From IMG/VR virus record IMGVR_UViG_3300037010_000555, positions 1 through 24,263 of that record: a DNA stretch of 24,263 nucleotides; one strand, 5' to 3'. Shown here piece by piece: positions 3,952 through 12,879 of this stretch. The first letter of the stretch is position 1, and every line of letters starts with the position of its first letter. Made by a program: the position numbers and the translations under genes. A model generated the notes under the pieces. That model was not told the origin of the DNA, ran no database searches, and saw only the letters and a list, made by a program, of their open reading frames with translations. This DNA comes from a virus.

Positions 3952-4638
3952 ATGGCACTACTCCCAAAAATTGAACGTCCAAAGTCTTATGTAACAACAC
4001 CAACATCTAAAATTGATGGATGGGTTATGCCTTTCACCATGAAAGAGCAAAAGATTTTAGCAATTGCAGAAAAATCTCAAGAACAGTCAAATATTCTAAA
4101 TGCAATGTTAGATATTATTAAAAGTTGTTCTTCATTCGATCCAAATTCATTATCTGGTGCCGAATTCCAATGGGTGTTTTTACAGATTCGTAAAGCATCA
4201 ACAGGTGCATCCGTAGATGTTACATTAAAATGTGGACATTGTGGTGAACAAGTTAATACCAAAATTTATTTAGATGAGTTTCAGATTACAGATCAAAAAG
4301 AATTAGATCCGAAACTAATGATTACTGATACCATTGGTGTTAAACTAAAACCATTATCAATTCTTAAAATTGCAACATCAAATAATATCTCAGAATCAGA
4401 TTCAATCCGTCTTGTAATTGATTATATTTTTGATGATAAAGATATATATAAAGTAGATGATGTAGATGATAAAGAATTAGAAGACTTTATTGATTCTATG
4501 GGTATTGATGCAATCAAATATATTATGGAATGGATTGCTAATGTTGGTTCATTAGAATTGAATAAAGACTGGATTTGTCCAAAATGTAATGGTAAAAATA
4601 ATTTACATGTTGGTGGTGTTGGAGATTTTTTCGTTTAA
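3952..4638 (+). CDS. 26: Baseplate hub protein gp26-like
   Basis: Encodes 228 residues. The N-terminal pattern LPKIERPKSYVTTP, followed by PFTMKEQKILAIAEKS, is that of the T4 gp26/baseplate hub family (P.....KEEKIL.IA...). Two CxxC pairs, C94/C97 and C209/C212, could bind zinc, and the end VGGVGDFFV matches the usual C-terminal G..DFF. Family members act in assembly of the central baseplate hub. AAGGA at 3936-3940 precedes the start. The last codons read through a TTTTTTC heptamer (4626-4632) two codons before the stop, and the -1 frame continues for 66 codons into a gp51-like segment, giving a predicted 293-residue fusion. The tape measure gene is next, so a tail-assembly chaperone role is inferred. 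Confidence 0.8.
   Translation: MALLPKIERPKSYVTTPTSKIDGWVMPFTMKEQKILAIAEKSQEQSNILNAMLDIIKSCSSFDPNSLSGAEFQWVFLQIRKASTGASVDVTLKCGHCGEQVNTKIYLDEFQITDQKELDPKLMITDTIGVKLKPLSILKIATSNNISESDSIRLVIDYIFDDKDIYKVDDVDDKELEDFIDSMGIDAIKYIMEWIANVGSLELNKDWICPKCNGKNNLHVGGVGDFFV
4626..4632 (+). promoter_or_regulatory. Programmed -1 frameshift site (slippery heptamer)
   Basis: In the gp26 frame the bases read T TTT TTC, a canonical X XXY YYZ slippery heptamer. Slippage by -1 at the TTC changes ...GAT TTT TTC GTT TAA into ...GAT TTT TTC CGT TTA and so on, avoiding the stop and entering an open frame that ends at 4832. GGAG at 4621-4624 lies immediately upstream and GGTGG lies about 10-15 bases upstream, either of which might act as an internal Shine-Dalgarno-like stimulator. 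An 11-bp inverted repeat lies 23 bases downstream. Confidence 0.7.
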
Positions 4639-4832
4639 CTCTCTTAAACTTTGATTTACTAGATTATTATAAAACAAATATGAATCTAGTAAAAGATTTC
4701 CATTTTAGTATGGGTGATATTGAATCTTTATATCCATTTGAATATAAAGTTTATGTCAATCTAATATTAGAATGGATTAAGGAAGAAGAAAAGAGAGTCA
4801 AAGAACAATCTAGAAGAATTTATAGAGGGTGA
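4632..4832 (+). CDS. 51: gp51-like extension of gp26 reached by -1 frameshift
   Basis: The frame 4632-4832 is open without a start codon until ATG 4680 and ends at TGA 4830-4832. Joined to gp26 through the slippery site (3952-4632 then 4632 again) it gives a 293-residue product with a 66-residue tail: RLTLLNFDLLDYYKTN, then a helical segment with YPFEYKVYVNLILEWIKEEE. The residues upstream of ATG 4680 look as protein-like as those after it, and that ATG has no ribosome binding site, so a separate gene of 50 codons is less likely than the fusion. The P.E...YV.L....I..E pattern resembles the C-terminal part of T4-type hub assembly proteins (gp51 or gp26-gp51 fusions). The intrinsic terminator overlaps its stop codon. 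Confidence 0.65.
   Translation, partial: RLTLLNFDLLDYYKTNMNLVKDFHFSMGDIESLYPFEYKVYVNLILEWIKEEEKRVKEQSRRIYRG
4655..4693 (+). repeat. Perfect 11-bp inverted repeat downstream of the frameshift site
   Basis: TTTACTAGATT (4655-4665) and AATCTAGTAAA (4683-4693) are exact reverse complements with a 17-base loop. The stem begins 23 bases after the slippery heptamer, further than is usual for a stimulatory hairpin. The ATG at 4680-4682 falls at the edge of the loop. It may slow ribosomes or hide that ATG; either is inference. Confidence 0.6.
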
Positions 4833-4903: not shown

Positions 4904-7675
4904 ATGAGTACATCATCAGAACAACAAGCCGAAAAAAATGCACAAAATAAAACTATTAGTGGGTTAACAGAACAACTCAATACCTTAACATCTGCAATTA
5001 AACTTATGGGCAAAGATATGGCTGGTAATGGTGTTGGTTCAGTTGGTAAAGGTGTTGGTAGAGCTGCTAATGTCGTCGTTGATGCTACATTGGATGAAAT
5101 ACCTGGTGGACGTGCTATTGCTGGAATGGTAGGTGATGCTAAAAAATATTTCACTGGATTAAAGGAAAGAGCCAAAGCAGAAGCCGAGAAAAAGTCTAGT
5201 AAAAATGAATCAAAAGATATCATAGACACAATAGAAAAAACCAGCCAAAATGAATCAAGAGAATTCGGCAGTGAACTGGAAAAATCTAGACATGAAAATT
5301 CAAACGATAATAAAGAAATAATTAAAGAAGTAAAAAAAGTAACAGAAGTTGTAAAAGAATCAAACAACATTGCTATAATAGAAGGGTTAGAAGAATCACA
5401 TGAATTAAAACATCTAACGCATGAATTGGAAAAATCTAGTTGCAATGAAACAAAAGAGTCATCTAGTGATCTAGAAAAATCTAGTCACGAAAATTCAAAC
5501 GATAATAAAGAAATAGTCGATGCAATAAAGGAAACAACAAAAGCAATAAAAGAATCCAACGATATTGCTAGAAAAGCTGCAGCTGAAGAAAAAATAAAAG
5601 AAATAAAGGATAAGGATACAGTTGCGCAATCACAATTAGTTAAACCAGATAATACCAAAAAAGATGAAAAATCTAATGGTATATTTGGTGCATTAGGTGC
5701 AACGGTTATGGGTTCAATTATGGGTATCATGAAGTCTGCCACAACATTCTTGACTGCTGGTTTGGCTGCTATTGGTACAACTATCATGAAAGGATTAGGT
5801 GTTGCACTTAGATTTGCAGGGCGCGCATTGTTTCTTGCTGTTAGACTATTGAATCCAATTGGTTGGGCATTATTAATCGCGGATCTTCTTGTTACATTTA
5901 AAGATGATATTATTGGATTTTTCAAGGGCGATGGGTTTAAGAATTTTATTCAATCCACCAAACAATTATTAATAGATGCTTGGGATGGTATTGTAAAATT
6001 CTTTAAAGAAACCGATTGGTCAGGTTTAATAAAATCAGCAGCAGAAGGTATTAGTAATTTTATAGATACCATAGGTACCTGGTTTAAAGATTCAATGGTC
6101 AGTCTATGGGAAGGTGTTAAAAACTGGGTATCAGATCTTACAGAAGTAATTTCTGTAATAGGTACAGCTATATATGACAATTTATTAACACCACTTGGAA
6201 CATGGGTACTTGATTCAGTTAAATCAATGTGGGATGCTGTTACTGATAAAATTTCTGGATGGATAACCGATTTCAAAACATTAGTATCAGATAAATGGGA
6301 TGGTGCTAAACAGTTTTTAAATGACATCCCAAATAAATTGATGGAACCATTTGATACACTGATTAAATGGTTTGATAATGCTAGACTTGGTGGAAAATTA
6401 AATGATTTATTATCAGGTGTAACCGATAAAATTTTGGAAGGATTCGCATCAATATATAACATGACAGTTGCCAAATTACCTGGTGTTGATACCAAAATGT
6501 TACCAAATGGTAAATTGGTTAAGTCAGATGATTATGCCGAATATGAAAATTTGGTGAATGCTGGTAATTCAACACAGGATGCAGCGGCAAAAATAACACA
6601 AATGATTAGTGATAGAGAATCAGCAGAACATCAATATAATGTTAAGAAGGTTATGGCAGAACAACATGTTACTGCAGAACAAGCTGAGGTAATAGTTACA
6701 CAACAAGAAAAAGAAAAAAATCAAGGTGTTATTGGTAAGGCAGTTACTGCAGTAGGTAATGGATTAAGTAAAGTTGGTGATGTAGCTTCAGGTGCAGCAA
6801 GTTATGTTTCTGATAAAGCTTCTAGCGCGGTTGATTCTGTTAAGGCATTCTTTAGTAAATCATCATCAGACGGAAAATATCAGATAATATCTAATGGCGG
6901 TCGGACATCTGCAGTTGGTGCAAAAGGTAAATTTGATGCTTCATCTGATGCAATGAATAGTTTACTTGCAACAAATACAGGATTAAACAATTCACTGCCA
7001 ACTGGTGCTGCTGGTGATAGTGTTAAAAATAACCTTGTTCGGGTTGATGAACAAATCTGGGAACCATTAAAACGTATAGATCCTGGTGTAAAAATTAGTT
7101 CTGGATTTAGATCTAAAGAGGTTAATCAACGTATTGGTGGTGCATTGCAGTCAGACCATACAGAAGGTCGGGCAATTGATATTGTGCCAGGACCAGGTCA
7201 AACACCAACAGATTTAGCAAATGCAATCATTGACAACAATTTACCATTTTCTAAACTAATTGTTGAACCATCATGGGTACATGTATCACTTCCTAAAGAA
7301 GGTGAGACAAATGTACAACGATTGGTTATGGTTTCTGATGATGCAATGGCAGAAAATGCAAAATACGGCCCTGTTAAAATAGAATCAATTCACTTAAATA
7401 ATGATTTGCCACCAATTAGTGGCAGTCCTACCAGGGCACAAGCAACAGGAAAAATACCACAAAGCGCGCCAATATCATCGCCAACGCCTAGCACAGGAGA
7501 TATGGTTGCAACTGGTACAGCTAGTGTTAGTAAAGCAAACACTGAATTAAATGCAGCAATATTCAAATCTGCTTCTGATTCATCATCTGGTGCAACGGTG
7601 ACCGCCAATAATGGCAATACTGTTAATAATGTTACTGTTATTAATACTTCAACTGGTAAGTCTAGTACATGGTAA
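4904..7675 (+). CDS. 29: Tape-measure-like hub protein with C-terminal M15 peptidase domain
   Basis: Encodes 923 residues, longer than T4 gp29 (about 590). Residues 1-250 are polar and probably coiled coil, with a 65-residue internal duplication (ELEKSRHENSND and DLEKSSHENSND). Residues about 257-333 are hydrophobic (likely membrane-active) and about 355-490 contain regularly spaced tryptophans, as in tape measure proteins. Residues about 715-800 are a clear M15-type D,D- or L,D-peptidase: SGFRS..VN (733-740), SDHTEGRAID with H752 and D759, and EPSWVHVS with E788 and H793, giving the zinc ligands and catalytic glutamate. The tail is Thr/Ser/Asn-rich. It follows the gp26/51 unit, the usual tape measure position. 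It likely sets tail length and cleaves peptidoglycan crosslinks during DNA entry. Homology to gp29 itself is by context only. Confidence 0.8.
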   Translation: MSTSSEQQAEKNAQNKTISGLTEQLNTLTSAIKLMGKDMAGNGVGSVGKGVGRAANVVVDATLDEIPGGRAIAGMVGDAKKYFTGLKERAKAEAEKKSSKNESKDIIDTIEKTSQNESREFGSELEKSRHENSNDNKEIIKEVKKVTEVVKESNNIAIIEGLEESHELKHLTHELEKSSCNETKESSSDLEKSSHENSNDNKEIVDAIKETTKAIKESNDIARKAAAEEKIKEIKDKDTVAQSQLVKPDNTKKDEKSNGIFGALGATVMGSIMGIMKSATTFLTAGLAAIGTTIMKGLGVALRFAGRALFLAVRLLNPIGWALLIADLLVTFKDDIIGFFKGDGFKNFIQSTKQLLIDAWDGIVKFFKETDWSGLIKSAAEGISNFIDTIGTWFKDSMVSLWEGVKNWVSDLTEVISVIGTAIYDNLLTPLGTWVLDSVKSMWDAVTDKISGWITDFKTLVSDKWDGAKQFLNDIPNKLMEPFDTLIKWFDNARLGGKLNDLLSGVTDKILEGFASIYNMTVAKLPGVDTKMLPNGKLVKSDDYAEYENLVNAGNSTQDAAAKITQMISDRESAEHQYNVKKVMAEQHVTAEQAEVIVTQQEKEKNQGVIGKAVTAVGNGLSKVGDVASGAASYVSDKASSAVDSVKAFFSKSSSDGKYQIISNGGRTSAVGAKGKFDASSDAMNSLLATNTGLNNSLPTGAAGDSVKNNLVRVDEQIWEPLKRIDPGVKISSGFRSKEVNQRIGGALQSDHTEGRAIDIVPGPGQTPTDLANAIIDNNLPFSKLIVEPSWVHVSLPKEGETNVQRLVMVSDDAMAENAKYGPVKIESIHLNNDLPPISGSPTRAQATGKIPQSAPISSPTPSTGDMVATGTASVSKANTELNAAIFKSASDSSSGATVTANNGNTVNNVTVINTSTGKSSTW
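5279..5515 (+). repeat. Internal duplication within the tape measure gene
   Basis: A 42-base segment at 5279-5320 recurs at 5474-5515 with 40 of 42 bases identical, offset 195 bases (65 codons, frame preserved). Flanking protein sequence is also similar (KEVKKVTEVVKESNNIA versus KETTKAIKESNDIA). A shorter third copy of GAAAAATCTAG is at 5429-5439. The high DNA identity points to a recent duplication in the coiled-coil region. Confidence 0.8.
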
Positions 7676-9570: not shown

Positions 9571-10720
9571 AGATCGGGGTCAATGGTCACTTCAGGAAAT
9601 GAATATTAGTGTACTCGATAATGATAAAGAAGTTACATTTAGTATTATTGAATTGAACCAGGGATTTGCACTGACTTATGATGTTGAGAATACAACAGTG
9701 GATGGTCAAATCAATATTATAGATAGATATGATGTTGTAAAAAAGTATAAAATCTCAGGTGGCCAAACAATCTCATTAAAGCTATCCGCAGGGGATGATA
9801 AACCAGTTAAACTGAATCTATTGGTCTATAAAGTTACACCTTCTGTGGAGTCTTCTGGGGATGCTAGAAAGTATAGTTTTAGTGTTACATCAATTGACCA
9901 TACAAATTTTAATAGATCCCATTCAATATCCTTGGAAGGTACTATTGATAGTCAAATAGATAAATTTCTAAAAAATGCAATACAGACACAATCAAAGTTT
10001 GAAACAATTCATCTACCAAAATGGCCAATGAAGTTTGTATTCAATGCTGAAAAAGGATATTCAATAATTGAGTTTCTAGAAACCCGTTGTTTATCAGAAA
10101 AGAATAATTCAGTATTTAGATTCTTTGAAACATTTGATGGTTATAAATTGGTTAGTCTAAAAGAGGCATATGACGATAAACCATCTAAAACATTTTCAGG
10201 TCAAATAGAATCAGAAACAAGTACATTGAGTTATCTTGTATATGATAATTTTAAGTTGATATCACAAGGTGACCATAATGAAATGCTTTATAATGGTGGT
10301 TATGGTTCTTTAATGTCAACATTTGATGTATTCAATAAAAAACACATACCAAATAAAGAATCAAAAGAAGAATCAACATCAATAACAGATAAAGCATATA
10401 CAACTGAAGCATCTAAATTGTTTAGATTGTCCTATAATGATCCTGCTAGTACAATGAAACAAGATCATATTGAAGACATTACACCAATTAGATTAAAACA
10501 GGAAGCAACAATTAATAATACTGTAATATCAATACGAGTACCTGGTATGTCAGATAACATACCTGGATTATGTGTGGGTGTTACGGTCTATGGTGTTAAT
10601 AGAAATATTTCAGGTGAAAAGAATAAAGAGAATTCATTATCAGGAAAATATGTAATCACAAGAGTTGATAATGTATTCGGTGAACAATGGTTACAAACTT
10701 TAACATTAAAGAGATTCTAA
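9554..10720 (+). CDS. 27: Baseplate hub protein gp27-like
   Basis: Encodes 388 residues, close to the 391 of T4 gp27. The sequence is beta-rich with recognisable hub-type elements: IIELNQGFALTYDVENT near the start, VTSIDHTNFNR near residue 112-122, and a middle segment FLETRCLSEKNNSVFRFFET (gp27 and related hubs show R......S..N...F.FFE). It should form the trimeric torus on which the gp5 spike sits. The start at 9554 lies inside the end of the gp53 frame (17-base overlap), suggesting coupled translation; CGGAG at 9539-9543 serves as ribosome binding site. The next gene starts 3 bases after its stop, as expected for the hub-spike pair. Confidence 0.75.
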   Translation: MSELIRDRGQWSLQEMNISVLDNDKEVTFSIIELNQGFALTYDVENTTVDGQINIIDRYDVVKKYKISGGQTISLKLSAGDDKPVKLNLLVYKVTPSVESSGDARKYSFSVTSIDHTNFNRSHSISLEGTIDSQIDKFLKNAIQTQSKFETIHLPKWPMKFVFNAEKGYSIIEFLETRCLSEKNNSVFRFFETFDGYKLVSLKEAYDDKPSKTFSGQIESETSTLSYLVYDNFKLISQGDHNEMLYNGGYGSLMSTFDVFNKKHIPNKESKEESTSITDKAYTTEASKLFRLSYNDPASTMKQDHIEDITPIRLKQEATINNTVISIRVPGMSDNIPGLCVGVTVYGVNRNISGEKNKENSLSGKYVITRVDNVFGEQWLQTLTLKRF

Positions 10721-10723
10721 TAT

Positions 10724-11623
10724 ATGAATACAACTGATGGAATTCGTACATGGGTTGGTAGTGTAGTAAATGTAAATGATCCGCTAAAAGCAAATCGAGT
10801 TCAGGTTAGAATTTTTGGGTTACACGATACATCAACAACAAATCTAAAAAATGATGATTTGTTATGGGCATTGGTTGAAATGCCAACAACAACTGCTGGT
10901 GTTACTGGTATTGGGTTGACTGTACATGGATTAGTACCTGGTTCTATTGTAACATTAGAGTTCTTAGATGGTATTAATGAACAGATACCATTGGTTCGTG
11001 GTGTTATATTAGGAATCAGTACACAGAATGGAATAGATGCACCATTTGGTGATCCATCTGGAAAGTATCCATTAAAAGATAGACTTAACGAACCTGATGT
11101 TAATCGTTTAGGTAGAAATGAAAAGTCATCAAGTACATATAGATCAAATAAAGGTTCTAGCGGTACAGTTAGTGCTGGTCAAACATCATGGTCTCAACCT
11201 GCAGATCCATATAATGCTGTATATCCAAACAATAAAGTAATGGAAACAACATCAGGTCATATAATTGAAGTAGACGATACACCTGGTGCAGAAAGAATCC
11301 ATATAAGACATAAATCAGGTACATATACAGAATACCATCCTAATGGTGATATAGTACATTATACTGTAGGTTCTGAATATAGAACAGCTGGACCATTAAA
11401 TGTGTTTGTAAAAGGTAATGCCAATTTAACGGTGAATGGTGATGCTAATACAAAAATTAATGGTAATGATAACAGAACAATTAGTGGTAACTTAACAGAA
11501 ACTATTAATGGTAATTTTACTCAAAATGTATCTGGTTCTATTAACCAATCTGCAGGTTCTAGTGCTTCATTAGTTGCTTCTGGTTCTGTTACAATTAATG
11601 GTTCAACTGTTAATATCAATTAA
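10724..11623 (+). CDS. 5: Central spike protein gp5-like, without lysozyme domain
   Basis: Encodes 299 residues against about 575 in T4. Residues about 10-100 form an OB-fold-like domain (WVGSVVNVNDPLKANRVQVR, then GIGLTVHGLVPGSIVTLEF), typical of gp5/VgrG. A linker leads to ETTSGHIIEVDDTPGAERIH, the usual entry to the needle. From residue 229 to 276 six uninterrupted octads (VKGNANLT, VNGDANTK, INGNDNRT, ISGNLTET, INGNFTQN, VSGSINQS) follow the VxGxxxxx rule of the gp5 C-terminal triple-stranded beta-helix. No lysozyme insertion is present; the hydrolase is instead on the tape measure. It should trimerise below gp27 and be capped by the PAAR protein encoded at 12595. Confidence 0.88.
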   Translation: MNTTDGIRTWVGSVVNVNDPLKANRVQVRIFGLHDTSTTNLKNDDLLWALVEMPTTTAGVTGIGLTVHGLVPGSIVTLEFLDGINEQIPLVRGVILGISTQNGIDAPFGDPSGKYPLKDRLNEPDVNRLGRNEKSSSTYRSNKGSSGTVSAGQTSWSQPADPYNAVYPNNKVMETTSGHIIEVDDTPGAERIHIRHKSGTYTEYHPNGDIVHYTVGSEYRTAGPLNVFVKGNANLTVNGDANTKINGNDNRTISGNLTETINGNFTQNVSGSINQSAGSSASLVASGSVTINGSTVNIN

Positions 11624-12594: not shown

Positions 12595-12879
12595 ATGGGA
12601 TCAATTGCTAGGGTTGGAGATACAACATCAGGTCATGACTGTCATCCACCACAGACACTTGTTTCTGGATCTCCAAATGTGTTTGTAAATGGTAAACCTG
12701 CATGTAGACAAGGTGATCCAGTGTCATCTCATACATGTGGTAAAGATACACATTCTGGTGTTGTTTCTAGCGGATCAGGATCTATTAAAATAAATGGTTT
12801 ACCTGCTGCAATTATTGGATCTGCCATTTCATGTGGTGGAGTTATTGCTAAAGGTTCTGATAATACATTTGGAAGTTAA
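12595..12879 (+). CDS. 5.4: PAAR spike-tip protein
   Basis: Encodes 94 residues, the size of T4 gp5.4 (97). It begins IARVGDTTSGHDCHPP and continues SPNVFVNGKPACRQGDPVSSHTC, with GSIKINGLPAAIIGS later: the repeated P/G-rich pattern of PAAR proteins. Candidate zinc ligands H14, H17, H46, H53 with C16, C48 and C80 are available. PAAR proteins form a pointed cone on the gp5 needle and make first contact with the membrane to be pierced. GAGGAATCATTG precedes the ATG (AGAGGA at 12581-12586). The next gene starts 2 bases after its stop. Confidence 0.92.
   Translation: MGSIARVGDTTSGHDCHPPQTLVSGSPNVFVNGKPACRQGDPVSSHTCGKDTHSGVVSSGSGSIKINGLPAAIIGSAISCGGVIAKGSDNTFGS

Follow-up and report, generated by a model that had tools for sequence, protein, structure and literature searches.

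A conserved -1 slippery site predicted to join gp26 to a gp51 segment directly upstream of the tape measure gene in a divergent T4-type phage

The DNA analyzed here, which we refer to as the window, is a stretch of 24,263 nucleotides comprising positions 1 to 24,263 of the IMG/VR virus record IMGVR_UViG_3300037010_000555. It contains an open reading frame encoding a homologue of T4 gp26, with the tape measure gene as the next gene downstream (Table 1). The product of the gp26 open reading frame matches Pfam family PF12322 with an E-value of 6e-40 and a score of 137.7 bits, which is above the curated cut-off of 24.5, and PHROG 150 with an E-value of 3e-41. Its two CxxC pairs, CGHC and CPKC, resemble a zinc ribbon, and these pairs are absent in some cyanophage relatives. 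In the frame of gp26, the region near the end of the gene reads GAT TTT TTC GTT TAA. An earlier, sequence-only reading of this DNA had pointed to an in-phase T TTT TTC close to the gp26 stop, and this heptamer is indeed present, one sense codon ahead of the stop. Also in agreement with that reading, the -1 frame, which lacks stop codons from 4602 to 4829, is open for 66 codons after the slip, and the predicted long product has 227 + 66 = 293 residues with the junction DFF-RLTLL. Residues 2-62 of the 66-residue -1 segment match PHROG 634, the gp51 family named “baseplate hub assembly catalyst”, with an E-value of 4.2e-16, which bears out the proposed relationship to gp51.

Table 1. Features of the gp26 locus in the window (positions are those of the window).
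Feature	Position	Strand	Remarks
gp26 open reading frame	3952..4638	+	Short form of 228 aa, lambda G-like; T4_baseplate, PF12322; two CxxC pairs
Slippery heptamer T TTT TTC	4626..4632	+	In the phase of gp26; in-phase T-TTT-TTN in 93/93 loci
-1 extension (gp51 segment)	4632..4832	+	66 codons and stop TGA (4830-4832); PHROG 634, tblastn, alignment
Possible 6-bp hairpin GTTTAA-CTCTC-TTAAAC	4633..4649	+	Directly 3' of the heptamer; weak; putative function
gp26 zero-frame stop TAA	4636..4638	+	One sense codon between heptamer and stop
Possible stimulatory stem-loop	4655..4693	+	Arms 4655-4670 and 4678-4693; 11 consecutive pairs; encloses ATG 4680; putative role
ATG of the -1 frame	4680..4682	+	Sole early ATG; no Shine-Dalgarno sequence; within the stem-loop; probably not a start
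Tape measure gene	4904..7675	+	Next gene downstream; PHROG 58, E = 6.5e-10; PF08291, E = 2e-11; proposed client of the chaperone

The C-terminal part of the tape measure protein contains an M15-type peptidase domain (PF08291, residues 725-794). Further downstream, gp5 (10724-11623) has OB and C-terminal repeat domains, and no lysozyme domain was matched in it by Pfam at a threshold of 1e-3. Judging from these domain matches, the tape measure protein may have taken over the wall-cutting activity of the hub. Downstream of gp5, positions 12595-12879 encode a small PAAR-motif protein (PHROG 281), which is probably the spike tip.

A tblastn search using the -1 segment alone as query matched 505 phage records, mainly of cyanophages, and also of Vibrio, Aeromonas, Sinorhizobium and Methylophilales phages, with matches starting at residue 1 of the segment. 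For P-TIM40, base 9659 is both the end of the gp26 match and the start of the gp51 match, placing the two in -1 register, and the junction DNA in P-TIM40, S-WAM1 and S-PM2 reads CTTTTTTCGCATAA or CTTTTTTCGCGTAG. A search of viral contigs with gp26 of the window as query found no relatives because its sequence is too divergent, and IMG/VR was therefore searched with an alignment of -1 segments. A plasmid search gave no match. The resulting set of 93 loci consists of 83 IMG/VR contigs (80 retrieved by homology to the -1 segment only, together with three earlier ones), nine annotated phages and the window; 84 of the 93 remain distinct at an identity cut of 85%. Since the 80 IMG/VR loci were retrieved via the -1 segment only, their selection is independent of the heptamer.

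The last base of the heptamer, present in phase in every one of these loci, is C in 65, T in 19, A in 8 and G in one of them. The heptamer was also found in S-MbCM6, Vibrio PVA8 and the marine virus AG-345-F15, which were examined afterwards. For 88 of the 93 loci, the gp26 stop follows after zero or one sense codon. The codon preceding the two Phe codons of the heptamer, a Ser, Asp, Asn, Ala or Thr codon, ends in T in 93/93 loci, and the first Phe codon is TTT without exception, while TTT makes up only 64% of the Phe codons in these genes. If the codons are taken as drawn independently and kinship between the loci is ignored, the chance probabilities of these two observations are about 1e-22 and 1e-18, respectively. 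The codons at the slippery site are thus far more uniform than predicted from codon usage. Heptamer, phase and downstream frame are all conserved across the aligned relatives, with strong constraint at silent sites, in line with the programmed -1 frameshift that had been proposed for the window. At the level of sequence, the slippery signal is real and nearly perfectly conserved in the relatives.

Candidate stimulatory elements were found on both sides of the heptamer. The predicted RNA structure of the 45 nt starting at +12 past the heptamer has a mean z-score of -1.5 in the relatives, and values of about 0 were obtained at offsets before and well after this region. For the window, the possible hairpin and stem-loop together have a minimum free energy of -13.6 and a z-score of -3.8; its main stem begins 22 nt past the heptamer, and the usual spacer is shorter. 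Among the examples printed, the strongest stem is that of S-PM2 (L004:3011-3045), which has 14 pairs and starts 9 nt past the heptamer. RNAalifold detected no common structure for the 93 downstream regions because the positions of the stems vary, and we claim no covariation support. Upstream, most relatives contain an SD-like GARGG about 10 nt before the heptamer; the window does not have it. In dnaX, frameshifting is promoted by an SD-like sequence at a comparable distance. The GARGG of the relatives also encodes a conserved Glu-Gly, which confounds its reading as an SD sequence. An SD-like stimulator has been described for dnaX frameshifting (PMC5009743). Taken from sequence and predicted folding, the downstream structures and GARGG are suggestive of frameshift stimulators.

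The T4 genes provide a second view of the same proteins. In T4, gene 26 encodes 208 aa and gene 51 encodes 249 aa; the two genes are neighbours on opposite strands, divergently oriented, and they have no slippery heptamer, unlike the situation in the window. The protein domains, however, are alike. T4 gp26 belongs to PF12322, and so do residues 1-201 of T4 gp51 (E = 3.9e-52), i.e., its N-terminal ~200 aa. Moreover, T4 gp51 matches PHROG 150 over residues 3-248 and PHROG 634 over residues 147-246, its C-terminus corresponding to the -1 segment of the window, and a BLASTP comparison of T4 gp26 with gp51 gives an E-value of 2e-6. By these matches, T4 gp51 is therefore a gp26 paralogue containing the gp51 segment in frame, and the suggestion that T4 genes 26 and 51 are a split form of the frameshift pair was correct in this sense. 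The FF at the end of T4 gene 26 is retained but is encoded by TTC TTT, so that the heptamer is absent. The short and long forms would thus be encoded by two genes in T4 and its close relatives and by a single gene in the window phage. It has been reported that gp51 of cyanophages and marine vibriophages is without the first ~200 residues (Sullivan et al. 2010, PMC3037559); a frameshift that supplies the gp26 part would explain these “missing” ~200 residues of cyanophage gp51.

The arrangement resembles that of phage lambda, in which both G and its rare frameshifted long form GT bind the tape measure protein, GT recruits the tail tube protein, and neither is present in the virion (PMC5009743). 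As for G/GT, the window has a short form and a predicted rare -1 extension made near the 3' end of a gene located directly upstream of the tape measure gene, and the proposal that the pair is the counterpart of G/GT agrees with this layout. The heptamer differs from that of lambda and gp26 is larger, with its zinc-ribbon-like CxxC pairs; the parallel with lambda G is one of gene layout and recoding. A similar layout is known for the tail assembly chaperone (TAC) genes of the Vandenendeviridae, such as that of phage Adele; there, TAC-N precedes the tape measure gene, and its 3' end contains a conserved poly-T site for a -1 frameshift (PMC12846349). Their motif is GTTTTT and they belong to other phage families, and this comparison is one of arrangement.

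We infer from genomic position, recoding and the literature, with a probability of roughly 90%, that the locus is the TAC gene of a T4-type phage, which produces a short/long pair by a -1 slip like lambda G/GT. Most ribosomes would terminate at 4636 and yield the short form gp26 (228 aa, TAC-N), and a minority would slip one base back on T TTT TTC, translate the 66 extra -1 codons and yield gp26-51 (293 aa, TAC-NC). If the analogy with G/GT holds, the product of the neighbouring tape measure gene would be coated by the short form, the tail of the long form would bring in partners from the tail tube or hub, and neither form would be retained in the virion. T4 and its close relatives would obtain the same products from gene 26 (short form) and gene 51 (long form, fused in frame).

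It is also conceivable, though unlikely, that the frameshift is real and that its products are structural proteins of the hub instead of a chaperone pair of the G/GT type. The family names read “baseplate hub”, and some genetic studies place T4 gp26 within the hub itself (PMC3004832). In addition, the fold of gp26 was compared with solved structures: the AlphaFold model of the 228-residue protein has a pLDDT of 93.4, and its match to the solved TAC HK97 gp13 (2OB9) is weak and not significant (E = 2.6, probability 0.25, TM 0.40 for the 107-residue target, 74 columns). The Pfam and PHROG matches listed for an alignment of gp26 include no TAC family, a search of PDB sequences with the gp26 profile gave chance matches only, and NCBIfam gave no match. 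On the other hand, T4 gp51 is required for assembly yet absent from the particle, and gp26 and gp51 are both tabulated as hub assembly chaperones (Leiman 2010, PMC3004832). The hallmark of TACs is a short/long pair that arises by a -1 slip just ahead of the tape measure gene, and a TAC assignment for T4-like phages has, according to papers that cite it, already been published (Vladimirov et al. 2022).

A different explanation for the open -1 frame is that gp51 is a separate small protein, of 50 aa in the window, translated from ATG 4680 or by re-initiation past the gp26 stop. A short gp51 gene of this kind is annotated in many records, and in Vibrio phages the gp26 stop is part of a TAATG. An ATG is present within the first 30 nt of the -1 frame in 25 of the 93 loci; in the other 68 there is none, and in 48 neither ATG nor GTG nor TTG occurs. 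Even where a start codon is available, the heptamer is retained. The sequence-only reading had used the lack of a ribosome binding site at ATG 4680 as an argument. The observation is true, since this ATG has no SD sequence and is moreover buried in the predicted stem, but we give the missing site little weight because the tape measure start at 4904 is likewise without a clear one. The case against a separate start rests instead on the conserved residues upstream of the ATG. Homology sets in at the very start of the -1 segment, 16 residues ahead of ATG 4680, which confirms the earlier impression of protein-like residues there, and conserved positions of the segment include Leu 9 (86/93), Asn 16 (89/93) and Phe 17 (91/93). 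Finally, T4 gp51 includes the gp26 domain, and therefore the fusion is the working protein in T4. A separate gp51 is thus very improbable.

The annotated phage records inspected (L002, L003, L004, L089-L092, L094, L100 and L101) do not contain a joined CDS. The -1 segment is either unannotated in them, as in S-WAM1, S-MbCM6 and Aeromonas P19, or treated as a gene of its own, gp51 or hypothetical, whose start is placed at a later ATG. In phiM12 (L090:4181-4600) and Melnitz-2 (L092:4216-4545), the gp51 segment is separated from the tape measure gene by an additional small open reading frame.

We consider it even less probable that the change of frame is due to RNA polymerase slipping on the T run rather than to the ribosome. 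T runs are capable of transcriptional slippage, and at least seven Ts are present in 19/93 loci; however, the run is exactly six Ts in 74/93, and runs that give transcriptional slippage in bacteria have about nine (PMC5009743). The exact codon phase T-TTT-TTN together with the downstream structures matches ribosomal slippage. A sequencing error, for which a homopolymer is a prone site, or a decayed gene is refuted by the identical arrangement in 93 loci, which include isolates from different sequencing groups.

Returning to the frameshifting chaperone gene, the distribution of its two forms bears on their history. A tree of 25 proteins resolves three groups, namely gp26 encoded by a separate gene, gp51 encoded by a separate gene and the frameshift type, with supports of 92/92, 100/99 and 100/96; the tree is unrooted with long branches and alone gives no order of states. 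The frameshift type is used by Aeromonas P19 (Emmerichvirinae) and Vibrio PVA8 (Schizotequatrovirus), which belong to the Straboviridae, as does T4, and this favours an order in which the frameshift came first and the duplication later. We therefore lean towards the view that frameshifting within a single gene is ancestral in T4-type phages, the ratio of its products being set by a stem-loop 3' of the heptamer and, for most relatives, also by an SD-like stimulator, and that in the T4 lineage recoding was replaced by duplication and in-frame fusion. The frameshift would have been retained in cyanophages, other IMG/VR phages, and phages of Vibrio (Schizotequatrovirus) and Aeromonas (Ceceduovirus).

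The statement in the sequence-only reading that no such description exists for T4-type phages has to be withdrawn. An earlier study (Vladimirov, Gautam and Davidson 2022, Virology 566:9-15), which is cited in PMC10274946 and PMC12846349, identified TAC genes in T4-like phages. Citing this work, the PRFect paper (PMC10274946) states that some T4-like phages have, in place of a frameshift, two genes, one of them short and the other a longer fusion, and the Adele paper (PMC12846349) mentions T-rich -1 signals in the TAC-N genes of T4-like phages. Because the cited description of a short and a fusion gene matches our results for T4, we take genes 26 and 51 to be those meant. As conveyed by the citing papers, these TACs share the T-rich -1 signal and the pair of a short and a fusion gene with the ones reported here, and the window differs in being a divergent member that is apparently not described there.

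Ours is therefore not a first description, and the window represents a new, divergent member of the T4-like TAC genes. Much of the view that the frameshift is ancestral may be contained in, or derivable from, the 2022 paper; what may be new here are the putative stimulators and the range of phages over which the site is conserved. The short -1 segment that is annotated as a separate gp51 or missed in the records inspected would be the C-terminus of a frameshift product. T4-type phages would thus be a clear example from nature of one short/long pair reached by two alternative routes, programmed frameshifting and gene duplication, which are directly comparable as both yield the same pair of proteins.
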